From positions 1-64,000 of the forward strand of contig JAFURE010000031.1 in assembly GCA_017471985.1 (NCBI GenBank): a stretch of 64,000 nucleotides of DNA, written 5' to 3'. The notes beneath the pieces are model-generated. The model was not told the origin of the DNA and ran no database searches. It worked only from the letters and a program-made list of their open reading frames with translations. The position numbers were made by a program, and so were the translations under genes. Positions 41,254 through 52,129 of the stretch are shown piece after piece; positions within the stretch are counted from its first letter, which is position 1, and the number at the start of each line of letters is the position of its first letter. Source of the stretch: Akkermansia sp. GTDB taxonomy: Bacteria > Verrucomicrobiota > Verrucomicrobiia > Verrucomicrobiales > Akkermansiaceae.

Positions 41254-41281
41254 ATTATACACAACTTTACCCATAAATCAA
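41254..41281 (-). promoter_or_regulatory. promoter of malic enzyme gene
   Basis: On the minus strand TTGATT (41281-41276), 16-nt spacer, perfect TATAAT (41259-41254), then 24 nt to the ATG at 41229 (leader about 17 nt). Confidence 0.7.
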
Positions 41282-41313
41282 GCCCAGAGACTGACCGTAT
41301 GGATATTTTATAG

Positions 41314-44300
41314 TCAAACGCCCCCATTCCTGCTCATTAACGCGAGTTTAATTTCCTGAATACAGCCATCCATGTTTTCCTCTAGTTGGTAGACCCAAAA
41401 GCGAAGAACTTGCCAACCTGCACTGGTAATCTGTATATCTCTCCACAAATCATCTACCTTTCGCCCACCGGAAGCAGCAGTATGCCAACGCACACCGTCA
41501 ACTTCTATGTCAAGTTTTACAGAATCTGTGATAATGGCCATATCTAAACGGCGTTCACCAAGATGATATTGAGTCCGAGGCTTGATGCCATGATCCATCA
41601 AAGCATTATACAAGCGTTCTTCCCAAACAGAATCAAACTTCGGTTTATCATCTCGAACAGTTTTCAATCTAGGAAGGCCAGCCAACTTTCTTAACAAAAT
41701 TGAACTGCTCTCAGCACAGCGTTTTCTGTCACCTACCACCACTAAGCATGCACGAGCACGACTTACAGCAACATTATAAATATAACGATTACTATCTGAG
41801 GTTAAATACCACAACTGCGAGCTCTGGAGTTCTCCTGTATAAGATAGCATGAAAATAATCACATCTTTCTCCCCACCCTGAAACGCATTGACTGTATTAA
41901 CTATCAATTCTCCATTAAAGGCGTGTCTGTACTCATTTAAGCGCTCATCCAATAGATTAGCATACTTACGCAGAGGCGTAACTACGCCGACCGACCCTGT
42001 ATACCCATTACGGGCTAATTCAGCCACCCTTTGTACGACAGCCTCCATCTCTCTCTCGACAGAATCCGAAACATCTATCCAATCAACAGCTTGCTTAAGA
42101 CCTAATGCAGAAGGTGAAACCAATCGTTCCATTGCCGTGCATACATTCAGTCGGTTGTTATAGAATGCATCATTAAAATAATCGGCAATTCCCGGATGAC
42201 AACGATAATGATTTGTCAGCATAATGCGTTTTTCACCTATTACACTGTAAGCAGTCGACATACAATAATTGAACATCGAATACCGGACATCGCTTAAATG
42301 GTGATGCTGGAGCAAATATTCATTTCTAGCTTCCCTCATTGTAACGACCGGCGGGAACTGCTGGGGATCACCAACTATAATGGCCTTTTTGGCACGATAC
42401 AATGCCGGAATCATTGGAGGAACGTCGCACTGCGATGCCTCATCTATGATAACAGCATCAAAAACTGCAGGCAAACATGGAGCGGAACGAGTTAGAGATA
42501 ACAAAGTAGTAGCCCACGCAGGAGCAATGTTTAAAAAACTTTTAAACTCAATAACAGACTCGGCCACACGCTCCTGATTTACCCCTTGCGTCATCAACAA
42601 TTCATTTTGGTTTTTATAGGAATATTGGAGGTTTTTTAATTGTTTTTTCAACTCATCATCTTGAACGTAAGGTGCTACAGCGTCAGATAGAGAATATATC
42701 AAAGCTGTTTTAAGTTTCGAATTTATTGTCCCTACTTCATACTGTAGGCATTGAAGAGCCTCTTTCAGCGGAATTATCTTTTCACAAGTCTTTTTTAATA
42801 TAGACTTTTTCTCACACTGCTCGCGGTACTGCTTAATTTTTTCCAAAAAAAGATCAATTTCACTCTTAATGTACGACGAACGCAACGCACCATGAACCTT
42901 TGCAGGTACAATCTGAGCTAATTCGCGTCTGGCCTGAGCATCATTTTTAGCACCGCGTATTTTCCATAGAAATAAACTCCACAGATTACGCCATGTTTTA
43001 TCGGTCGGAGGTTCCCCCAAAAGTTTTATCAAACTCTTTAATTTTCTGGCACTGGGATACTGAACATCCTGCAATCGGTTATCGACACCGAGAAAGTGAC
43101 GCAAATATAAATCTAATTCCTCGATACGAGATTGTAAAATACTCAATTCAGTTTCTACATCATCTCGCCCGCACAATCCTTGTATAACTGCGCCCCACTT
43201 CTTATCCAATTCCATGGCGTCTTCAAAATGCCATTGATTTGCATATTTCCCGGCATGCTCTGCTTTTGCAATCAAAAGTTCAACATCCTTTTTAAACCAC
43301 TCGTCCGTTACCTTACCATCCGGAGTGGAACAAAAATTCACCAAATCCACGCTATATTCCTTCAACATAGAGGAACTGCGCTCAGCAATAGCATGTACAG
43401 CCTTGTGGTTACGGCTGGTAAATAATACTGATTGTTTACGCAAAACATGATTGGCAATAATATTAACCGCAACCTGAGATTTTCCGGTACCCGGAGGCCC
43501 GGTTACCAATGTCAGATTGTTATTGAGTGCATGCGTAACTGCTAATTGCTGTTCATCGTTAGTACCAATAAACGGAAATGCATAATGATGACTCTGAGAT
43601 TCATTCTTTAATACAGGCTCTCGAAAAACATACGCTAATGCTGTAGTATCAAGGATCTCATCAGGCTCTTGAGCAATATAGCGAAGTTCTCTGATTAATG
43701 TGCGGGAATACTGCAGATTTGTGCCCACAAACAGCGCAGCGCAATTACATGATTGACTACCTTTTTCAGACAGTCTTGGTAATACCCACTGTAAACTATC
43801 GGAGTCAAACATGCCGTGAGTGCATCCTCGGGCATAAGTCTCTAAATATGGTAAGGATCGTTGAACATCAATAAGTCCCTGATATTTATCATCATTATGT
43901 AGACAAGTCAACAATTTCAACAATGCCTTGTGCTCTTCAGGCTTAATGTGATACTCAAGCCAACTATGATTGATGTCAGCTTCATCGGTTCTCAACTTTA
44001 TGTACAGATTATTCAAATCGCTTCTCACATCGACCGGAATAAGCGCAATAGGTACATAATGTGTTTTTCCTTTGTGATAAAAAGCTTCAATTGGGTAGCC
44101 TATATATACATCCTCCTCATAGCTTTTTCTTGATAAAATTGTGTTAATTGCCACCTGATTATTTCTATTGATGGCAATAGCAAATTCCTGACATTTTTCA
44201 CCAAGCTCTTTTAGCCAGCCGTATGGCAAAACCGGCAAAAAATATTTTTTCCCGTAGTCTTCATTAAATAAATATTGCTGGCTCTTTTCTTGCAGCTTTA

Positions 44301-44637
44301 CACATTCAGCATAATAACCTACAATCTTGCGGAAAGTTCCCCATGGGTCAACATCTGCCCTAACAGGCTTTTCAACAACAATAGGTTCCGGAACATCATG
44401 AAACAAACGGCGTTCCTTCAATCCTTCGGGGGTTAAATCATAAGTTCCATAAACTGTACACTTAACCCAACCTTCGCTCATTAACAAGTCGAGCACGCTC
44501 TGCCCCCATTTCCCAGGGTTCACTGTCTCTAATAAAGACAAAACCCGATTATGAGGCATGGGAATACTCTCACCCGATGAATTCAGGCGCCATATAACCA
44601 AAGAGTACTTATTCTCATTTTCATTCTGAATCATCAT
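41314..44637 (-). CDS. SF1 (UPF1-like) helicase with C-terminal Vsr/DUF559-like nuclease
   Basis: About 1107 aa from ATG 44637; a TTG at 44649 abuts the preceding stop. An N-terminal ~350-residue region is unknown. The helicase core has Walker A GPPGTGKSQVA near residue 380, SRNHKAVHA, Walker B VIIDEASQCD near 730, VGDPQQFPPV (motif III), then NHYRCHPGIADYFND, VNAFQGGEKDVIIF and AVSRARACLVVVGD: the UPF1/AAA_11-AAA_12 type. The last ~100 residues carry a PD-(D/E)XK nuclease of the Vsr/DUF559 (MTES_1575) kind: WEERLYNAL, RRLDMAI, LDIEVDGVRWH and GWQVLRFW. Expected to unwind and cut nucleic acid; distal gene of the five-gene operon. Confidence 0.88.
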   Translation of the reverse strand: MMIQNENENKYSLVIWRLNSSGESIPMPHNRVLSLLETVNPGKWGQSVLDLLMSEGWVKCTVYGTYDLTPEGLKERRLFHDVPEPIVVEKPVRADVDPWGTFRKIVGYYAECVKLQEKSQQYLFNEDYGKKYFLPVLPYGWLKELGEKCQEFAIAINRNNQVAINTILSRKSYEEDVYIGYPIEAFYHKGKTHYVPIALIPVDVRSDLNNLYIKLRTDEADINHSWLEYHIKPEEHKALLKLLTCLHNDDKYQGLIDVQRSLPYLETYARGCTHGMFDSDSLQWVLPRLSEKGSQSCNCAALFVGTNLQYSRTLIRELRYIAQEPDEILDTTALAYVFREPVLKNESQSHHYAFPFIGTNDEQQLAVTHALNNNLTLVTGPPGTGKSQVAVNIIANHVLRKQSVLFTSRNHKAVHAIAERSSSMLKEYSVDLVNFCSTPDGKVTDEWFKKDVELLIAKAEHAGKYANQWHFEDAMELDKKWGAVIQGLCGRDDVETELSILQSRIEELDLYLRHFLGVDNRLQDVQYPSARKLKSLIKLLGEPPTDKTWRNLWSLFLWKIRGAKNDAQARRELAQIVPAKVHGALRSSYIKSEIDLFLEKIKQYREQCEKKSILKKTCEKIIPLKEALQCLQYEVGTINSKLKTALIYSLSDAVAPYVQDDELKKQLKNLQYSYKNQNELLMTQGVNQERVAESVIEFKSFLNIAPAWATTLLSLTRSAPCLPAVFDAVIIDEASQCDVPPMIPALYRAKKAIIVGDPQQFPPVVTMREARNEYLLQHHHLSDVRYSMFNYCMSTAYSVIGEKRIMLTNHYRCHPGIADYFNDAFYNNRLNVCTAMERLVSPSALGLKQAVDWIDVSDSVEREMEAVVQRVAELARNGYTGSVGVVTPLRKYANLLDERLNEYRHAFNGELIVNTVNAFQGGEKDVIIFMLSYTGELQSSQLWYLTSDSNRYIYNVAVSRARACLVVVGDRKRCAESSSILLRKLAGLPRLKTVRDDKPKFDSVWEERLYNALMDHGIKPRTQYHLGERRLDMAIITDSVKLDIEVDGVRWHTAASGGRKVDDLWRDIQITSAGWQVLRFWVYQLEENMDGCIQEIKLALMSRNGGV

Positions 44638-44649
44638 CGTTGTCAACAA

Positions 44650-47049
44650 TTAGTCATCTAACGTAGCAATTGCAACCAAATCATCTAATGAACCACTCCC
44701 TGTAATGAAATTCAATAAACTATCAGCCAATGCAGCTTGTTGAGGATTGTACAATTCTCTTTGAACCTTAGCATGTTTTTCTTTAATTCTGTTAGCGTTC
44801 TCTATTATAATATTTAAAATTTCCTCTGCATTTCTACGAACCGGTCCAGATATCAAAAACGTCTTATCGAATTTACGTCGAGTTAACATAAATAAAAGTG
44901 TCTTTAGCGCAGCAGTAAATAATTTGGGCTTATTATTAAAAAAATGTGAAAACAACATGGCCATCAAATGATCCATACACTGTTCACACTGGTGAGAATT
45001 AATGTACTTAAGCATATCATTATTTGAAACAAGTAGCCAATATAGCCCTCGATTCCACTCTTCCACACCCTTTATATCAATGATTGATTCTTTATTTTTA
45101 TCGGTTACAAATTCTTTATTCCGCCAATACTGTTTCAATACCTCTGAAGAATCTATAGACATCATCTTGCGATGAATAACCTTTGTATATGCTTCAAAAA
45201 AATTAGTCAATTCTTCGCAGGTGCGCAATAGATTAGCGCAAGCTGTCATCACATGTTTACTAATACTATTAACAGTCCCATCAGCGCACGTGTTAATTAT
45301 CTTCAACATATCACGTTTAACCACAGAAAACGCCTTAAAATCGCCCTGATACGTTCTTGATATCATAGCAAGAACGTTATACATATCCTTAATATTACCT
45401 CTTCGTTTGCATAACAAATAATCATCCACCATGTAATGAAATAAGGCATCAAATTTAAAAATAGCAGGACTAATTGGGTATCTATGATTCTCTGCGTAGC
45501 CAAACACATTCTTTCGATTCAAACGTTCAATACCTTCTGCTTTTGAATCAACAGGACTTAGCTTAGCAAATAAATCTTTATTTCGGTATAGGCGATTACG
45601 CATATAAGCTCTAACATCGGCCTCTACTTTTCTCCACAAGCGTTCATTAGCAACAACATCTGGCATATCCAAAGGATATGAATGTTTAATTTCAGCTCGA
45701 AGTTTGTTAACTGTTTTTTCTGGCTCAGTCCAAGCCATTTTCAATAGGTCTAATTCTACAGGAGCACCTAATTGAGATTCACCTTCAACTCTCACCTTAG
45801 CAATACCTTGCCCCGGTATAATTGATGGATATAATTTCAACGGCTCTTTTTTCTGAACACAACCTCCCTTAAATTGATAATTAAGTTCCTTCAGGCGAAC
45901 ATCATCCCCCTTTTCTTCTGACAATAAAAAGAACACATTATCCGTACCAGCCTTTATGAAACAATCTTCATTCATTGTACCTAGAATGACTTCACCACCA
46001 TTGCATCTTTCGTTGGCCGCAATAAGTTCCTTGGCATATATATTTTCTTGTTCTATATCCTGAACGACTATATACAAGCCGGTACACTCGTCAAAATACG
46101 TAGGCTTACCAGCCACGCGCCTTGCTACAAATATTGCAGCACCTTTGCTTAAACTGTCGCCATCCACATCGTCACGATACACCCCTTCCCATACACGCCC
46201 CTGATTATATGAAGCACCTATAGATAATACAGCATCGGCGTTCCAACAACTTCCGGGTAAACGAGTATACCTGATGACGGGTCGCTTTGAAAATCTCGTA
46301 ACAGAATACTCATTACTTTCCTTATCCCAAACGATATGATTACCAAAATCCCCATAGAATGTATAACGATAAAACTCGTTACCTGGAAAATATTTGGACG
46401 TAGGATTGAATTTTAACAATTCATGCGTGGGATATAAATCAGAGTGTCTATAAGCCTTTCGTTGAGGGACAAGAGTTCCATCGTCAGCTGCAACAATTTT
46501 AAGTATACTGATATCTTTATACGCTTGCTGTTCATCCAGAATATATACAGACATCTCCTCTTCAACCCCATTCTCACATAGGAACTCCATATTTCCTAAA
46601 CATGCAGCAACAGATCTCCACAACAGAGTCGTGGACTGACGAGGCAGCTCACAGTTACGAAGGATTTTTTCCTGATACTCAGCAGAAAAATTATCTGGTA
46701 TTAAAATAACATTCCGATCAGCCGGATTCTCTCTGTCAACATAGGTCGATGAATGCAAGGCCTTAAAAAAATATTCCAGCCGTATATCAGACTTTTCTTC
46801 ATCCTGAAAAAAATCTCTAACGAAATGAGCTCTTTTATAATCAAAAGAGCCATCTTCCTGCACAAAATCTCTCAAAATAGGTTTTTCACGTTCCTGAAGG
46901 TATGGGCGCTGATTACGACAAAGCTGCTCATCCGGCACAATAAGCACATCACTAATCAATACACGTTCCAGCAAATGATAGTTTTCGTCTTCAACCTCAT
47001 ACCGAGTACGAGTAAGAGCGCCTGTCAGATCATAAACATCTACTATCAT
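44650..47049 (-). CDS. degenerate Hsp70-like protein of the defence-type operon
   Basis: 799 aa, no signal peptide. The first ~350 residues follow Hsp70 nucleotide-binding-domain order: VILIPDNFSAEYQEKILRN (cf. the VPAYF segment) near 116, LWRSVAACLG (cf. NEPTAAALAYG), VYILDEQQAYKDISILKI near 170 in place of the DLGGGTFDVS loop, DAVLSIGASYNQGRVWEGV (cf. VGGSTRIP), and DGDSLSKGAAIFVARRVAG near 305 (cf. NPDEAVAxGAA). The glycine-rich phosphate loops are lost, so ATP hydrolysis is doubtful. Residues ~390-450 may be a substrate-binding-like beta domain and the rest is helical. Overlaps the DUF2357 gene by 4 bp and is followed directly by the helicase. Family assignment is my alignment by eye. Confidence 0.55.
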   Translation of the reverse strand: MIVDVYDLTGALTRTRYEVEDENYHLLERVLISDVLIVPDEQLCRNQRPYLQEREKPILRDFVQEDGSFDYKRAHFVRDFFQDEEKSDIRLEYFFKALHSSTYVDRENPADRNVILIPDNFSAEYQEKILRNCELPRQSTTLLWRSVAACLGNMEFLCENGVEEEMSVYILDEQQAYKDISILKIVAADDGTLVPQRKAYRHSDLYPTHELLKFNPTSKYFPGNEFYRYTFYGDFGNHIVWDKESNEYSVTRFSKRPVIRYTRLPGSCWNADAVLSIGASYNQGRVWEGVYRDDVDGDSLSKGAAIFVARRVAGKPTYFDECTGLYIVVQDIEQENIYAKELIAANERCNGGEVILGTMNEDCFIKAGTDNVFFLLSEEKGDDVRLKELNYQFKGGCVQKKEPLKLYPSIIPGQGIAKVRVEGESQLGAPVELDLLKMAWTEPEKTVNKLRAEIKHSYPLDMPDVVANERLWRKVEADVRAYMRNRLYRNKDLFAKLSPVDSKAEGIERLNRKNVFGYAENHRYPISPAIFKFDALFHYMVDDYLLCKRRGNIKDMYNVLAMISRTYQGDFKAFSVVKRDMLKIINTCADGTVNSISKHVMTACANLLRTCEELTNFFEAYTKVIHRKMMSIDSSEVLKQYWRNKEFVTDKNKESIIDIKGVEEWNRGLYWLLVSNNDMLKYINSHQCEQCMDHLMAMLFSHFFNNKPKLFTAALKTLLFMLTRRKFDKTFLISGPVRRNAEEILNIIIENANRIKEKHAKVQRELYNPQQAALADSLLNFITGSGSLDDLVAIATLDD

Positions 47050-48293
47050 ATTCCGATTTTTTGCAAGAATTCAGTTGATATTTCATCTATATCCTTCTCT
47101 GAATCTAATAACAAAACATTAGACTGAGCAGAAACACTGTTTTTCACTTCTGGAGAAAAGCTATAAACTACATAGAGAGTATTATCCAGAGGGATTTGAA
47201 CCCCACCCCTTATACATGAGGGTATATAAACCAATTTAATATCAGTCTTATTACCGCCCCTATTTCTGACTATAAGTTCTCCACAATCTTTAGAGACCCT
47301 CCAGTCAAGTAACCCTGTTGAGTTCTGATATATGTTAGAAAATAAAGGATTCACAAAAAATCGCCCTCTACGAGGAGCTATACTCACCCAATACGATGAA
47401 TCAAAAACAAGCCTGCCGGCCTCTAAACACAAACGCATGGATAACCAGCAACAAAAATATTCGCCGAACAATGCGTACCTATATGGCCAAACTATTTCTG
47501 CAATGCGAACATGAGTCAAAATCTGTCGATAGAGTACCCACATCTTATTGTACTTTGCATCATGCAAAAGTACATAATTAGGTCGAACATTACCCTTTAT
47601 TGCAGAAATTTCCTGAATATCAGGCGACTTCCACGCATTCTGCAATAGGCGATACAGTTTTTTAACATTCTTAATTCGCTCTGATGAAGGATATAGTTTC
47701 TCATACAACGCGATATAGCGCCTCGCCATTACTGAAGCCCTATATATAAAATCCTTCAGAACTCGATTTTCTAATGTGTTTTTTGTTTCCTTGCGGACAA
47801 CTGCCAACAATCTCTGGCGCTCCCCCCCCTTTTCAGCCGCAGTATATCCCGGTTGCCGAGCCAACCACCGCAAGCAATGGGAATCTATTTGCTGGACATT
47901 AGAAACCTGAACCATACTGCGCTCACGTCGCAGCACTTTTCTCATTGAAAGCATTAAAGACTCGAGTACGCCATAATCACGCTTGGCTATAATGGAAATC
48001 AACTGTTCAGGCGGTTCTGATTTTATGGGGCTTGTCAATTTTTCCGCCATTTCGTCAACGCTCAAACGTAATTCGCCACGTCTATTTTTTGCCCCTCGTT
48101 TATTCTTTCGGAATTCTGTTTCAGCTTCAAAACGCAGCTCCGTCATTTGCTCTACTATATCACAAATAAAGGCAGCTTCCTTATCCTCATTCTTTCCGGC
48201 AATATACTCCTTTAATACAAAAGTATCCACCATTTCAGGAACTCTTTCATCCCTGAAACTGCTTACAAGAAACGAATCAACACTATGTACCAT
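47046..48293 (-). CDS. DUF2357/McrC-like protein
   Basis: 415 aa, no signal peptide. Resembles DUF2357-containing McrC relatives: a helical N-terminal part, then TKNTLENRVLKDFIYRA near residue 174 (the family's ENRxxKxxI motif) and a central LFGEYFCCWLSMRLCLEAGRL (cf. xYExWCFxKL). McrC normally ends in a PD-(D/E)XK nuclease; I do not see an unambiguous D...ExK set here, so the nuclease may be lost or diverged and supplied by the helicase gene. Encoded 3 bp after the McrB-like ATPase, as mcrB-mcrC pairs are. Confidence 0.65.
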   Translation of the reverse strand: MVHSVDSFLVSSFRDERVPEMVDTFVLKEYIAGKNEDKEAAFICDIVEQMTELRFEAETEFRKNKRGAKNRRGELRLSVDEMAEKLTSPIKSEPPEQLISIIAKRDYGVLESLMLSMRKVLRRERSMVQVSNVQQIDSHCLRWLARQPGYTAAEKGGERQRLLAVVRKETKNTLENRVLKDFIYRASVMARRYIALYEKLYPSSERIKNVKKLYRLLQNAWKSPDIQEISAIKGNVRPNYVLLHDAKYNKMWVLYRQILTHVRIAEIVWPYRYALFGEYFCCWLSMRLCLEAGRLVFDSSYWVSIAPRRGRFFVNPLFSNIYQNSTGLLDWRVSKDCGELIVRNRGGNKTDIKLVYIPSCIRGGVQIPLDNTLYVVYSFSPEVKNSVSAQSNVLLLDSEKDIDEISTEFLQKIGI

Positions 48294-48296
48294 TTA

Positions 48297-50315
48297 TCAG
48301 GAATCTCGTTCAGTACCTTGCCACATGAAGAATTCCCTATCTTCCTTCGAACGCTTAAATGCATCTGACAACACATCATCACCAAGCTCGTCTACCCAGA
48401 TACCCAAGTGCTCTACTTCTGAAGAAACAAAGCTTTCGCTCAAGTCAAGTCCATTCAATCTGGGCATAATCTTCATTTCTAATTGATCAATCAATGCGTC
48501 CCTAGCACTACCGGGATATTGCAGGATATAAGCCTCTGTGGTATTCCACAAGCGATGTGCAAATGGGCGACCGATTCTGGCCAACATATCGTTGACTTCA
48601 GCTATTTTTTTCATTTCCACATCTACGGCATTGCGATTCGAATCATTCTGCCATTCCTGCCAAAAATCAAACGTCATTGCTCTATCTTTGAACAACTCAA
48701 AGAACGTAGCCTTCTTATCTTTCCTATCAGCAAATTCATTACCATTGACTTTTATCAAATTCTTCGGTCGTCCAAAACGAAGAACATTAGCACGATCTTT
48801 TACCTTATCAGACAGAGACTGAGTCGATTCATCTTCATTCATTGTACCGACAAACAAATTATGTCTGCCTACAAATATACGACGCAAAGCATCCGTGCCT
48901 CCCATAGCTCCACTTTCCAGTACTATTTCAGCTGCGCGACGTTTAGCTTCATTGGCCGGGTCCAAACCTCGACGAACCTCCAATTTACTTAACATATCGC
49001 TGAAGTAATATTCCACGCGAGCAAGGTTCATTTCATCCAGCAAAATGAGATTCATCCCAGGATTCTTGGGAGCTTTGTCCCTGTTATTATAACAATCGGT
49101 CTGCCAAAGCAAACGAGATAACTCAGTTGCTTTATATCGACCTTCCATATAATTATAGAAGCCCAACATATCCTGAGGACTATCCCAACGAGGCTGAACC
49201 GGAATTTGTAAGAAGTTCATACCGACTGCGTGAGCATAAAGTTCAGGCAACAAACTCTTGCCGGTTCCTGATATACCCGCAAGCACCACCATTGGAGAAT
49301 AATCGGCAACCTTCAAACTGGTATGAAAAGCCTTAATCAAGCGTGAGCTAAACTCAAAACCGCTTTCTTTAAGAGCACTTTCAAACTCACCCAACCACTC
49401 TTGCTGCCCATATTTCTTAGGATTAGAAATATTGATAATTTTAATCTCTCTGTCCAAATCCTCCCATTTTTTCGCTAATACATTCTCTTTCCCTGTATAA
49501 GAACTAAGCTCAAATTCAAGCTCAGAGACTTTAGCTTTCAGTGAATTTCTAGTCTTCTCCAAACTACTGATTGTTTCATTTAATTCTTTAATTTTTTCTT
49601 CAATTTTTGCTTTATTTTCTTCTGCTTTTGCTATATCTTTTTCGGCATTTTCTTTAGCTTCTCTAATTTCCTTTTCCACCTCATCCTTCCGGGCCTCACA
49701 TTCTGCAAGTCGTCTCTCAGCTTCACTACGCTGACCGTCAATCGAATTCAATTCCTGAGTCTTCTTTGTAATTTCTCGATCTAAACGAGCAACTTCAGTA
49801 TTAGCATCAGCAATAGCAGCATTTAGTTTAGCAACATCTTCTTGCAGTTGTTGAAATCTTCTTTCTTCCTCGATTCTTTGATTTTCTGTACTTTTACACA
49901 GCCAATAGCAAGAATCTAATTTAGACTGAGCCTCCTGCAATTGAGTATTGATATTCTGTAATTCCTGAACAGCATTATTATACTTCTTAGTAACGATATC
50001 CAAATCAGTCTGCGTTGCAGCTATCTGAATTTTGAGTGATTCAATTGTACCACGATTCTTTTCCAACCAATCTTTTGCGGCATCTGATTCACTTATAACA
50101 TTTCTCGCTTTCACTAATTCTGCTGATAACTCATTCAGTTCCTTGCGTGTTTGCTCCAGCGTTTGATGAGCTTCAGCAATTTGCCTCGCAAGTGATTCTT
50201 TAGTATCATAGTCCGGATTTAAATCAATCGCTCGGTGAAAAAGATATACTGCCACCCACAAAGAAAAGAGAACGATTAGGATTAGAACAGTGATGGTAAT
50301 ATAAAGACTTGTCAT
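48297..50315 (-). CDS. membrane-anchored coiled-coil McrB-like AAA+ ATPase
   Basis: 672 aa. One N-terminal membrane helix (residues 4-27, LYITITVLILIVLFSLWVAV) leads into a ~250-residue coiled coil (Glu/Lys/Ala heptads, 40-300). The AAA+ domain belongs to the McrB branch: Walker A LAGISGTGKSLLPE near 349, Walker B LILLDEMNLARVEYYFSDM near 427, and sensor-1 region VGTMNEDEST near 493, where McrB GTPases have MNTADRS; the missing Asp at that place makes nucleotide preference uncertain. The PRWDSPQDMLGFYN segment is typical of McrB relatives. Likely drives assembly with the DUF2357 protein at the membrane. 28 bp after the coiled-coil gene. Confidence 0.85.
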   Translation of the reverse strand: MTSLYITITVLILIVLFSLWVAVYLFHRAIDLNPDYDTKESLARQIAEAHQTLEQTRKELNELSAELVKARNVISESDAAKDWLEKNRGTIESLKIQIAATQTDLDIVTKKYNNAVQELQNINTQLQEAQSKLDSCYWLCKSTENQRIEEERRFQQLQEDVAKLNAAIADANTEVARLDREITKKTQELNSIDGQRSEAERRLAECEARKDEVEKEIREAKENAEKDIAKAEENKAKIEEKIKELNETISSLEKTRNSLKAKVSELEFELSSYTGKENVLAKKWEDLDREIKIINISNPKKYGQQEWLGEFESALKESGFEFSSRLIKAFHTSLKVADYSPMVVLAGISGTGKSLLPELYAHAVGMNFLQIPVQPRWDSPQDMLGFYNYMEGRYKATELSRLLWQTDCYNNRDKAPKNPGMNLILLDEMNLARVEYYFSDMLSKLEVRRGLDPANEAKRRAAEIVLESGAMGGTDALRRIFVGRHNLFVGTMNEDESTQSLSDKVKDRANVLRFGRPKNLIKVNGNEFADRKDKKATFFELFKDRAMTFDFWQEWQNDSNRNAVDVEMKKIAEVNDMLARIGRPFAHRLWNTTEAYILQYPGSARDALIDQLEMKIMPRLNGLDLSESFVSSEVEHLGIWVDELGDDVLSDAFKRSKEDREFFMWQGTERDS

Positions 50316-50343
50316 AAAAAATCAAAGATTTAATTTTATTCCA

Positions 50344-51573
50344 TTACTCAGTCGGTGATAAGTTGGTTTTAGCTTCTTCGATTTGAGCATTTAAGCGTTG
50401 CAGCTCTTCTTGTTTTTGTCTACATTGCGCATCAAGATCACCGACTTCGGCTTGCAGTCTAGTCTTTTTTTGTTCTAACTCGGCACATTCCTGCGACCTA
50501 GATGCTACATCTGCTTGTAAACGTTTCAATTCAGCGGAAGATTCAGCATTTTCTCGACTCAATTTTTCTTCTTCGGCTTTCTGAGATTCCAACTGCCGCT
50601 GACGTTCCTCTCGCAAAGACGCGAGGCCTTCAATCTCTACTTTAATGACGTCTCTTTGGCGAATATAATCAGCCAATTCACCAGATACTCTCTCAACTTC
50701 AGTCTTCTTAGCATTTAATGTTTCTTCAGCGGATTTACACGATTGCTGCAGGCTGGTCAAACGACTTTCGATTTCCCTCACTCGAGAACTGGCTCGAGAA
50801 TTACCCATTTCATCCAACTTTCTCTGCAACGAGGAGAGTTGATTCTGAACGGCTTCTCGCTCTTGACGCAATGTGCCTATTCTTTCTTGCAATTGAGTTT
50901 CTTCTTGCTTGCTTGCAGCCAATGAGCCCTGCACTTCACTTAATTCGCGCTGAGCATCAGCCAATGAATTCAGAGCTGTCGTTTTCTGTTCATTGGCGGA
51001 CTCAATGTCATTCTGCAGCGAAGTCAACCGATCCGTCTTCTTTGAACATTCTTCTGTTAACGACTCATTTTGTGAAGTTAATCTTTTTAGCTCCTCTTGT
51101 GCCGAATTAACCTGAGTGTTCAATGGTTCAAGCTTAGATTCAGTTTCAGACAATAATGTGGAAGCAGCCTCTAATGCTTGCTGTTTTTTTTGCAATTCTT
51201 CGTTCTTTTGAGAAATCGTCCCACTCATTTTGCTATCTTCCTCTTGCTTCTGTGCCAATTGAGCATTTAACTCTGACAAGCGATTTTCAATATTCTGTAA
51301 CTGTGACTTCTTGTTTTCAAGAACAGATACTTCAAGGCTCAACGCATCACACTTCTTATAATCATCTGAAAGACGTTCCTCTAAGTGTTCAATATCCTGC
51401 AGGCAACGCTCTTTCGCACTATTCCATTGGAGATAATCTACTAGCAGATATCCATACGCAGCACAAGAGAGGATTCCAACCACTGTTATGATACCACAGA
51501 CGACATACCAAAACAGTCGACTTCCAAATTTATCCTTAAGTTTATAGAAAAGTTTCATCATCCGGCAACGCAT
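50344..51573 (-). CDS. membrane-anchored coiled-coil protein, first gene of defence-type operon
   Basis: 409 aa from ATG 51573; the longer TTG-initiated frame (51618) covers the promoter and is rejected. A short basic N terminus is followed by a membrane helix (FWYVVCGIITVVGILSCAAYGYLLV, about residues 20-43) and then ~350 residues of nearly unbroken coiled coil. No other domain. It mirrors the architecture of the next gene's N terminus (membrane helix plus coiled coil), suggesting that the two proteins pair through their coiled coils. Confidence 0.8.
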   Translation of the reverse strand: MRCRMMKLFYKLKDKFGSRLFWYVVCGIITVVGILSCAAYGYLLVDYLQWNSAKERCLQDIEHLEERLSDDYKKCDALSLEVSVLENKKSQLQNIENRLSELNAQLAQKQEEDSKMSGTISQKNEELQKKQQALEAASTLLSETESKLEPLNTQVNSAQEELKRLTSQNESLTEECSKKTDRLTSLQNDIESANEQKTTALNSLADAQRELSEVQGSLAASKQEETQLQERIGTLRQEREAVQNQLSSLQRKLDEMGNSRASSRVREIESRLTSLQQSCKSAEETLNAKKTEVERVSGELADYIRQRDVIKVEIEGLASLREERQRQLESQKAEEEKLSRENAESSAELKRLQADVASRSQECAELEQKKTRLQAEVGDLDAQCRQKQEELQRLNAQIEEAKTNLSPTE

Positions 51574-51580
51574 TTCTTTG

Positions 51581-51608
51581 ATTCTATCCCACTGACTGAA
51601 TATGTCAA
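51581..51608 (-). promoter_or_regulatory. promoter of the five-gene defence-type operon, leaderless spacing
   Basis: On the minus strand TTGACA (51608-51603), 16-nt spacer, TAGAAT (51586-51581), then 7 nt to the ATG at 51573. No other good promoter was seen inside the operon, whose genes are 0-28 bp apart or overlap. Confidence 0.75.
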
Positions 51609-51712
51609 GAGTAAACAATAAGCCATCACCTCCTCTTCTCGCATAATTTGGTCATAACAAGACATCAAACTAGGCATTTCCGGGAAAAAACATAGTCTAT
51701 CCGATTTATCGC

Positions 51713-51741
51713 TTTACGCTGCGCAGATGAGTAGATATAAT
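51713..51741 (+). promoter_or_regulatory. promoter of the FtsK gamma gene, leaderless spacing
   Basis: TTTACG (51713-51718), 17-nt spacer, perfect TATAAT (51736-51741), then 6 nt to the ATG at 51748. It is divergent from the defence-type operon promoter about 105 bp away. Confidence 0.65.
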
Positions 51742-51747
51742 GGCTGT

Positions 51748-52128
51748 ATGCACAAACAAGGTCTGTTACGACGGTTGGAGAAATGCCAAGAGGTGCTGAA
51801 TGCCTGCATCACTACGTTGCTCAATGAGAGGGTTAGCAAAGAGGATATGGAGGAGGCTCTGCCGATTTGTGAGTTCTTGCTCCAGGCAGCGCGAGAGGAG
51901 CTCAATGCTACAGATGAAACAAGCTACGATGCGGATACGGAAGAGCTCTATGCCCGCAGTGTGGAATATGTAACGGTAACTCAGAAAGCGAGCTGCTCGC
52001 TGTTGCAGAAGAAATTCCGCATCGGTTACGGGAGGGCGGCTCGCATCATGGATATGATGGTGGAGCGCGAAGTCATTACGCCAGCAAGCAAAACAGGTCG
52101 CCACAAGGTGCTACCCCCTGTTGAATAA
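51748..52128 (+). CDS. stand-alone FtsK gamma-domain (winged-helix) protein
   Basis: 126 aa from ATG 51748 (the ATG at 51727 precedes the -10 box). The N-terminal ~55 residues are helical with no known motif. The C-terminal ~65 residues match the FtsK gamma domain that reads KOPS sequences: ELYARSVEYVTVTQKAS, SLLQKKFRIGYGRAARIMDMM and EREVITPASKTGRHKVL. The FtsK motor and membrane domains are absent. It may be a small DNA-binding regulator, perhaps of the divergent operon, or bind chromosomal KOPS sites. Ends 1 bp from the convergent dciA-like gene. Confidence 0.85.
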   Translation: MHKQGLLRRLEKCQEVLNACITTLLNERVSKEDMEEALPICEFLLQAAREELNATDETSYDADTEELYARSVEYVTVTQKASCSLLQKKFRIGYGRAARIMDMMVEREVITPASKTGRHKVLPPVE

Positions 52129-52129
52129 A

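Follow-up and report, generated by a model that had tools for sequence, protein, structure and literature searches.

A Type III-B CoCoNuT operon with two predicted membrane anchors, inserted between core genes of an Akkermansia genome

The inserted operon and its site

The DNA analysed here (the window, 64,000 nucleotides of contig JAFURE010000031.1 of a gut Akkermansia sp., assembly GCA_017471985.1) carries on its minus strand five genes that, according to the list of open reading frames, occupy positions 41314-51618. The genes are named below after the CoCoNuT components to which they correspond:

41275-52129, no strand: inserted segment, between dciA and the malic enzyme gene
41314-44649, minus strand: cnuH, 1111 aa
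44650-47049, minus strand: cnuD, 799 aa
47046-48293, minus strand: cnuC, 415 aa
48297-50315, minus strand: cnuB, 672 aa
50344-51618, minus strand: cnuA, 424 aa counted from a TTG; an ATG lies at 51573
51581-51608, minus strand: promoter-like site TTGACA-16-TAGAAT upstream of cnuA, a consensus match only
51727-52128, plus strand: FtsK-gamma mini-gene, encoded divergently from cnuA at one end of the insert; 133 aa, hardly more than an FtsK gamma domain; GC 0.51

The preliminary description of this DNA had reported five same-strand genes with almost no spacing and an AT-rich composition, and both observations hold. The junctions measure 28 bp (A/B), 3 bp (B/C), a 4-bp overlap (C/D) and 0 bp (D/H), and the island has a GC content of 0.399. 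The 10-kb flanks reach 0.562 and 0.566, and the window's 163 other 10.3-kb stretches span 0.509-0.567, none of them close to the island. Moreover, GC3 is 0.31-0.37 in the operon versus 0.70-0.71 in the flanking genes. Kinase/phosphatase (TerY-P) genes do not adjoin the operon. The single promoter that had also been described is only plausible: the sigma70-like site scores 11/12, but 39 such matches were counted versus 28 expected. As this site falls within the TTG-extended reading frame, the likely start of CnuA is the ATG at 51573 or a codon shortly after it.

The operon lies between core genes, outside any evident defence island. The distance between dciA and the malic enzyme gene is about 50-95 bp in three congeners versus 10.9 kb in the window, and three more Akkermansia MAGs keep the operon at other sites, for example beside groEL. 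CnuD homologues, some of them only partial or weak, were found in 2 of the 59 near relatives and, across the phylum, in 9 of 388 genomes. Such empty sites, alternative insertion sites and patchy presence indicate that the operon is accessory and mobile rather than housekeeping. It was probably acquired recently, by horizontal transfer. The core-genome housekeeping role considered in the preliminary description does not agree with this distribution, since the locus is scattered and relatives lack it at the syntenic site. Enrichment of defence genes around related loci is modest: type I methyltransferases, the most prominent, account for 4-5 of 99 neighbours, a count that stands without a control set.

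Other loci deserve mention on their own. On L102 (2329-14906), a 62-kb contig that IMG/VR lists as viral, a complete III-B operon has a tyrosine integrase and a DNA primase as neighbours, which further points to mobility. In one Akkermansia MAG (L023 and L015, on the same contig) cnuH is split by a frameshift into 791 and 329 aa, through either decay or an assembly error. A lone CnuD homologue of 918 aa was found between core genes (rpoN-like, purH-like and pnp-like; L018, 9758-12514), with no McrBC genes near it. The GC content of the FtsK-gamma mini-gene is intermediate between those of island and host, and a close homologue sits just beside full-length ftsK in two genomes (G002, G435). A role of this mini-gene as a regulator was considered and found unsupported, since the other Akkermansia copies of the operon were not seen to have it as a neighbour, and it probably lies outside the system.

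Gene products and assignment to Type III-B

All domain assignments of the preliminary description were supported, by Pfam for CnuB, CnuC and CnuH and by AF2 folds for CnuC and CnuD. CnuB combines a coiled coil with a McrB-type AAA+ domain (Pfam AAA_5; Walker A GISGTGKS, followed by LLDEMN) and shows the NxD motif (GTMNEDE in the window) that is present in 81 of 81 relatives. CnuC matches Pfam DUF2357 (1.3e-6), and its AF2 model (pLDDT 88) superimposes on McrC with Z 8.9 and 3.3 A over 140 residues, the whole chain giving 3.8e-4 in Foldseek. Its C-terminal part weakly matches a PD-(D/E)xK nuclease-like fold (Z 5-6), and no conserved catalytic D/E-x-K column was found among CnuC relatives; column conservation was used here because a D-ExK regular expression matched 23 of 56 by chance. 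The nuclease fold thus appears to be kept with its catalytic motif lost, as described for III-B. CnuD has no Pfam match, and its model (pLDDT 84) consists of an Hsp70 NBD/SBD (1-440) similar to DnaK (Foldseek 1.3e-6, VIA Z 14.1) and of HEAT/ARM repeats (468-790; Z about 12.6 to HEAT/ARM proteins). Its phosphate-binding motifs are degenerate, the GGGT-type motif being found in 0 of 51 sequences. Finally, CnuH is a UPF1/SMUBP-2-like SF1 helicase (Pfam AAA_11/AAA_12; matches to SEN1, UPF1 and SMUBP-2) in which a large helical insertion separates Walker A (384-391) from DEASQ (736-740), and it ends in a Vsr/DUF559-type nuclease (MTES_1575 and DUF559) with the motif RLD...EVDG...H. This motif is retained in 56 of 56 full-length relatives (55 by pattern, one by reading), and by its motifs it is the only intact nuclease of the system.

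Type III-B CoCoNuTs were defined computationally by Bell et al. in 2024 (PMC11090510). According to that work they comprise a separate coiled-coil protein (CnuA), a coiled coil joined to a McrB GTPase with the NxD motif (CnuB), a McrC with an inactive nuclease (CnuC), an Hsp70 with HEAT repeats encoded by its own gene (CnuD), and a UPF1-like helicase directly fused to Vsr (CnuH), without TerY-P and without HEPN; CnuH is described there with a wHTH (Sul7s-like) N-terminus and an OB fold in the helicase (PMC11090510). The features of the CoCoNuT class are all found in the window (NxD GTPase, long coiled coil, DUF2357 McrC partner and associated nuclease), and so are several of those of III-B, namely a separate CnuA, a separate CnuD with Hsp70 and HEAT parts, and the helicase-Vsr fusion with its helical insertion. 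In contrast with the paper (PMC11090510), where cnuH comes first and hosts are mainly Alphaproteobacteria, the order in the window is A-B-C-D-H with cnuH last, and the hosts seen here are Verrucomicrobiota and other phyla.

A scan with the GTPase profile, using one genome per species, recovered 202 relatives, and the 80 best of them were retrieved; most intact loci in this set comprise all five genes. The order H-A-B-C-D occurs in Alphaproteobacteria, Planctomycetota and Thermodesulfobacteriota, and A-B-C-D-H in Verrucomicrobiota and the lineage of the window, the same five genes being found in Verrucomicrobiota, Kiritimatiellota, Planctomycetota, Thermodesulfobacteriota and Pseudomonadota. 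In the maximum-likelihood tree of the GTPase, a III-B clade of 79 sequences (96/87) includes the window and the alphaproteobacterial H-A-B-C-D systems, among them that of a Rhizobium tropici plasmid (L126). Cyanobacterial III-C falls outside this clade and plasmid III-A further out; because the outgroup branches are long, conclusions are drawn from the inner structure of the tree only. Comparison rows were typed by gene content and taxon rather than by published III-B accessions, and III-A rows were recognised by their VWA, PP2C and kinase genes. The plasmid relatives required the GTPase domain as query, the search of plasmids with CnuD giving no match.

Altogether, composition, NxD motif, folds and GTPase tree identify the operon as a Type III-B CoCoNuT. 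The proposal that it was an undescribed system is accordingly ruled out: its gene content is that of published III-B and its GTPase groups with alphaproteobacterial III-B, so that it largely coincides with a named type of the same composition. The relation to CoCoNuTs suggested in the same description is borne out by motif, composition and tree alike, and the likely immune role proposed there is supported as a probable one. As regards other named systems, the PADLOC model PDC-M26A matches CnuB of III-A, III-B and III-C, and CnuH matches Mokosh and other anti-phage helicases; PADLOC models gave no convincing match to III-B CnuC or CnuD. PDC-M26, whose composition was not found in the literature searched, was rejected as a named match, as only its A model hits CnuB, that of III-A and III-C included. 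A search of PDB sequences with the GTPase profile gave no match at 0.001.

Among the related types, III-C of cyanobacteria (Synechocystis pSYSX, L123) shares with the window a CnuB with an N-terminal TM helix, CnuC and a separate CnuD-like protein, and differs in a PLD nuclease on a separate effector and in that no CnuA gene was seen. The III-A system of a Klebsiella plasmid (L124) also has a coiled-coil NxD GTPase, a UPF1-like helicase and an Hsp70 with HEAT repeats; on the other hand, it has TerY-P genes, a separate effector (HEPN in Bell et al.) and a CnuB without TM helix. With canonical McrBC the operon shares a McrB AAA+ protein and its McrC activator, which the CnuC model matches. Canonical McrBC, however, has an NxxD motif, a DNA-binding domain and an active McrC nuclease, and unlike the window it has no coil, TM helix, pseudo-Hsp70 or helicase-nuclease.

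Membrane helices, predicted topology and a candidate mechanism

Transmembrane calls throughout are based on hydropathy. CnuA has a hydrophobic helix at residues 35-53 of the TTG form (KD 2.26) and a coiled coil of about 370 residues, and CnuB an N-terminal helix at 8-26 (KD 2.79) with a coiled coil at about 40-290; by hydropathy, CnuC, CnuD and CnuH have none. The two membrane-anchored coiled-coil components of the preliminary description turn out to be conserved, an N-terminal TM helix being present in CnuA of 69 of 74 loci and in CnuB of 79 of 81, versus 69 of 303 background ORFs from the same loci; several loci without it are short fragments close to contig ends. The CnuB helix is also found in III-C (L123) and in Rhizobium III-B (L126), and is absent in the Types I-B, II and III-A compared (L134, L135, L136, L137, L124, L125, L127). 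In the main text, be it of the eLife article or of the preprint, Bell et al. do not mention such helices in CnuA or CnuB: the separate word 'membrane' is absent, and mentions of 'transmembrane' concern other proteins.

The charges flanking the helices point to opposite orientations. For CnuB, N-out/C-in is favoured in 64 versus 2 proteins, and for CnuA the net charge difference favours N-in/C-out in 54 versus 12, K+R counts alone favouring N-in weakly (2.4 vs 1.9, p 0.02). Moreover, cysteine is five times scarcer in the CnuA coil than in that of CnuB (0.96 versus 4.99 per 1000), with no Cys at all in 56 of 69 CnuA coils versus 20 of 69 CnuB coils, as expected of a periplasmic domain. The topologies are therefore predicted to be opposite, with the CnuA coil in the periplasm and the CnuB coil and GTPase in the cytoplasm. 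The orientation of CnuA is deduced from family-wide trends in charge and Cys content, and is less sure for the window copy, whose own coil has 6 Cys. In three relatives (L017, L025, L026) a zinc ribbon lies N-terminal to the CnuA helix, presumably on the cytoplasmic side. The conserved anchoring of CnuA and CnuB in III-B, with this opposite predicted topology, is new.

We consider it likely that the operon is a horizontally acquired III-B CoCoNuT whose products make up an immune system derived from McrBC and fixed to the inner membrane. The N-terminal helix of CnuB would hold this protein at the membrane, its coil and GTPase facing the cytoplasm, and CnuB would assemble into an AAA+ ring in which the McrC-like CnuC stimulates NTP hydrolysis. 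The helix of CnuA would provide a second anchor; with its coil probably in the periplasm, CnuA might be an envelope-side partner or scaffold, and the pseudo-Hsp70/HEAT protein CnuD might bind a foreign or aberrant target, be it RNA, a ribosome or a protein. Engagement of the target would then activate CnuH, whose fused Vsr-type nuclease would cut nucleic acid at the membrane. Complex formation, trigger, nucleic-acid target, CnuA topology and anti-phage activity are all inferred here. In the literature, a Type II CoCoNuT is among the cloned systems reported to give phage resistance to P. aeruginosa PAO1 (PMC12735699), and no experimental test of any III-B system was found.

Vsr/DUF559 folds are mostly those of DNA nucleases. 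The fold of CnuH, its PADLOC matches to anti-phage helicases, the McrBC core and a membrane position suited to DNA entry would all fit a Type IV-like restriction in which incoming, possibly modified, phage DNA is recognised at the membrane and cut by the helicase-Vsr protein. CnuB, however, is without a modified-base recognition domain, the catalytic motif of CnuC is not conserved and other CoCoNuT subtypes carry RNases (PMC11090510), which leaves this explanation doubtful. A slightly better case, still short of a preferred one, can be made for the cytoplasmic RNA surveillance published by Bell et al., in which CnuD would recognise aberrant or viral RNA and CnuH degrade it, the helices only localising a complex where the coils of CnuA and CnuB pair in the cytoplasm. 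The pseudo-Hsp70 fold of CnuD, the matches of CnuH to SEN1, UPF1 and SMUBP-2, the published model itself (PMC11090510) and the weakness of the K+R bias in CnuA are consistent with it. RNA targeting is an inference of those authors (PMC11090510), least firm for III-B because it is without HEPN, and a cytoplasmic CnuA coil is at odds with the net charge difference, with the Cys depletion and with the zinc ribbons preceding the CnuA helix in three relatives. Membrane anchors and an Hsp70-like protein could also suggest a housekeeping or envelope-maintenance operon with no link to defence; we regard this as very improbable given the foreign GC and the integrase neighbour of L102, and it was rejected on account of the patchy presence of CnuD homologues and the empty sites.

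Within the membrane-anchored immune system favoured here, a more speculative extension, which we judge rather unlikely, would make CnuA a periplasmic coiled-coil antenna spanning the inner membrane and coupling envelope events to the CnuB ring and the helicase-nuclease. Phage adsorption, DNA entry and conjugation are tentative candidates for such events. If true, this would give McrBC-type systems a way of sensing across the envelope that is not known for them. Within the large McrBC family, III-B CoCoNuTs form a branch known from prediction; with conserved helices on both CnuA and CnuB, the working model for them would no longer be a soluble complex for RNA surveillance but one located at the membrane.

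A derived lineage with a reduced CnuC

An Ig-like beta-sandwich has been described at the N-terminus of III-B CnuC, although not as a type-defining criterion (PMC11090510). This region is absent in the window, whose CnuC model has no N-terminal beta-sandwich, and in the sub-lineage to which it belongs, a branch of 15 rows in the GTPase tree (100/99). CnuC of the window is shorter by about 45-70 residues after residue 15 than that of III-B relatives, a feature common to the sub-lineage. Nested in it, a branch of 6 rows (100/94: L025, L028, L030, L031, L032, L034) has CnuC fused to CnuD. The fused CnuC parts cover about positions 107-374 of the 540 of the profile, mostly 110-346, so the C-terminal nuclease-like domain is missing as well. 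The wider host range of III-B and this derived, CnuC-reduced lineage are both new.

In the lineage of the window, CnuC domains were lost step by step, up to a fusion that resembles III-A; the CnuC-CnuD fusion of III-A is like that of the Kiritimatiellota branch. The III-A architecture would have been reached inside III-B, unless domains were exchanged. The fusion supports a physical partnership between CnuC and CnuD.
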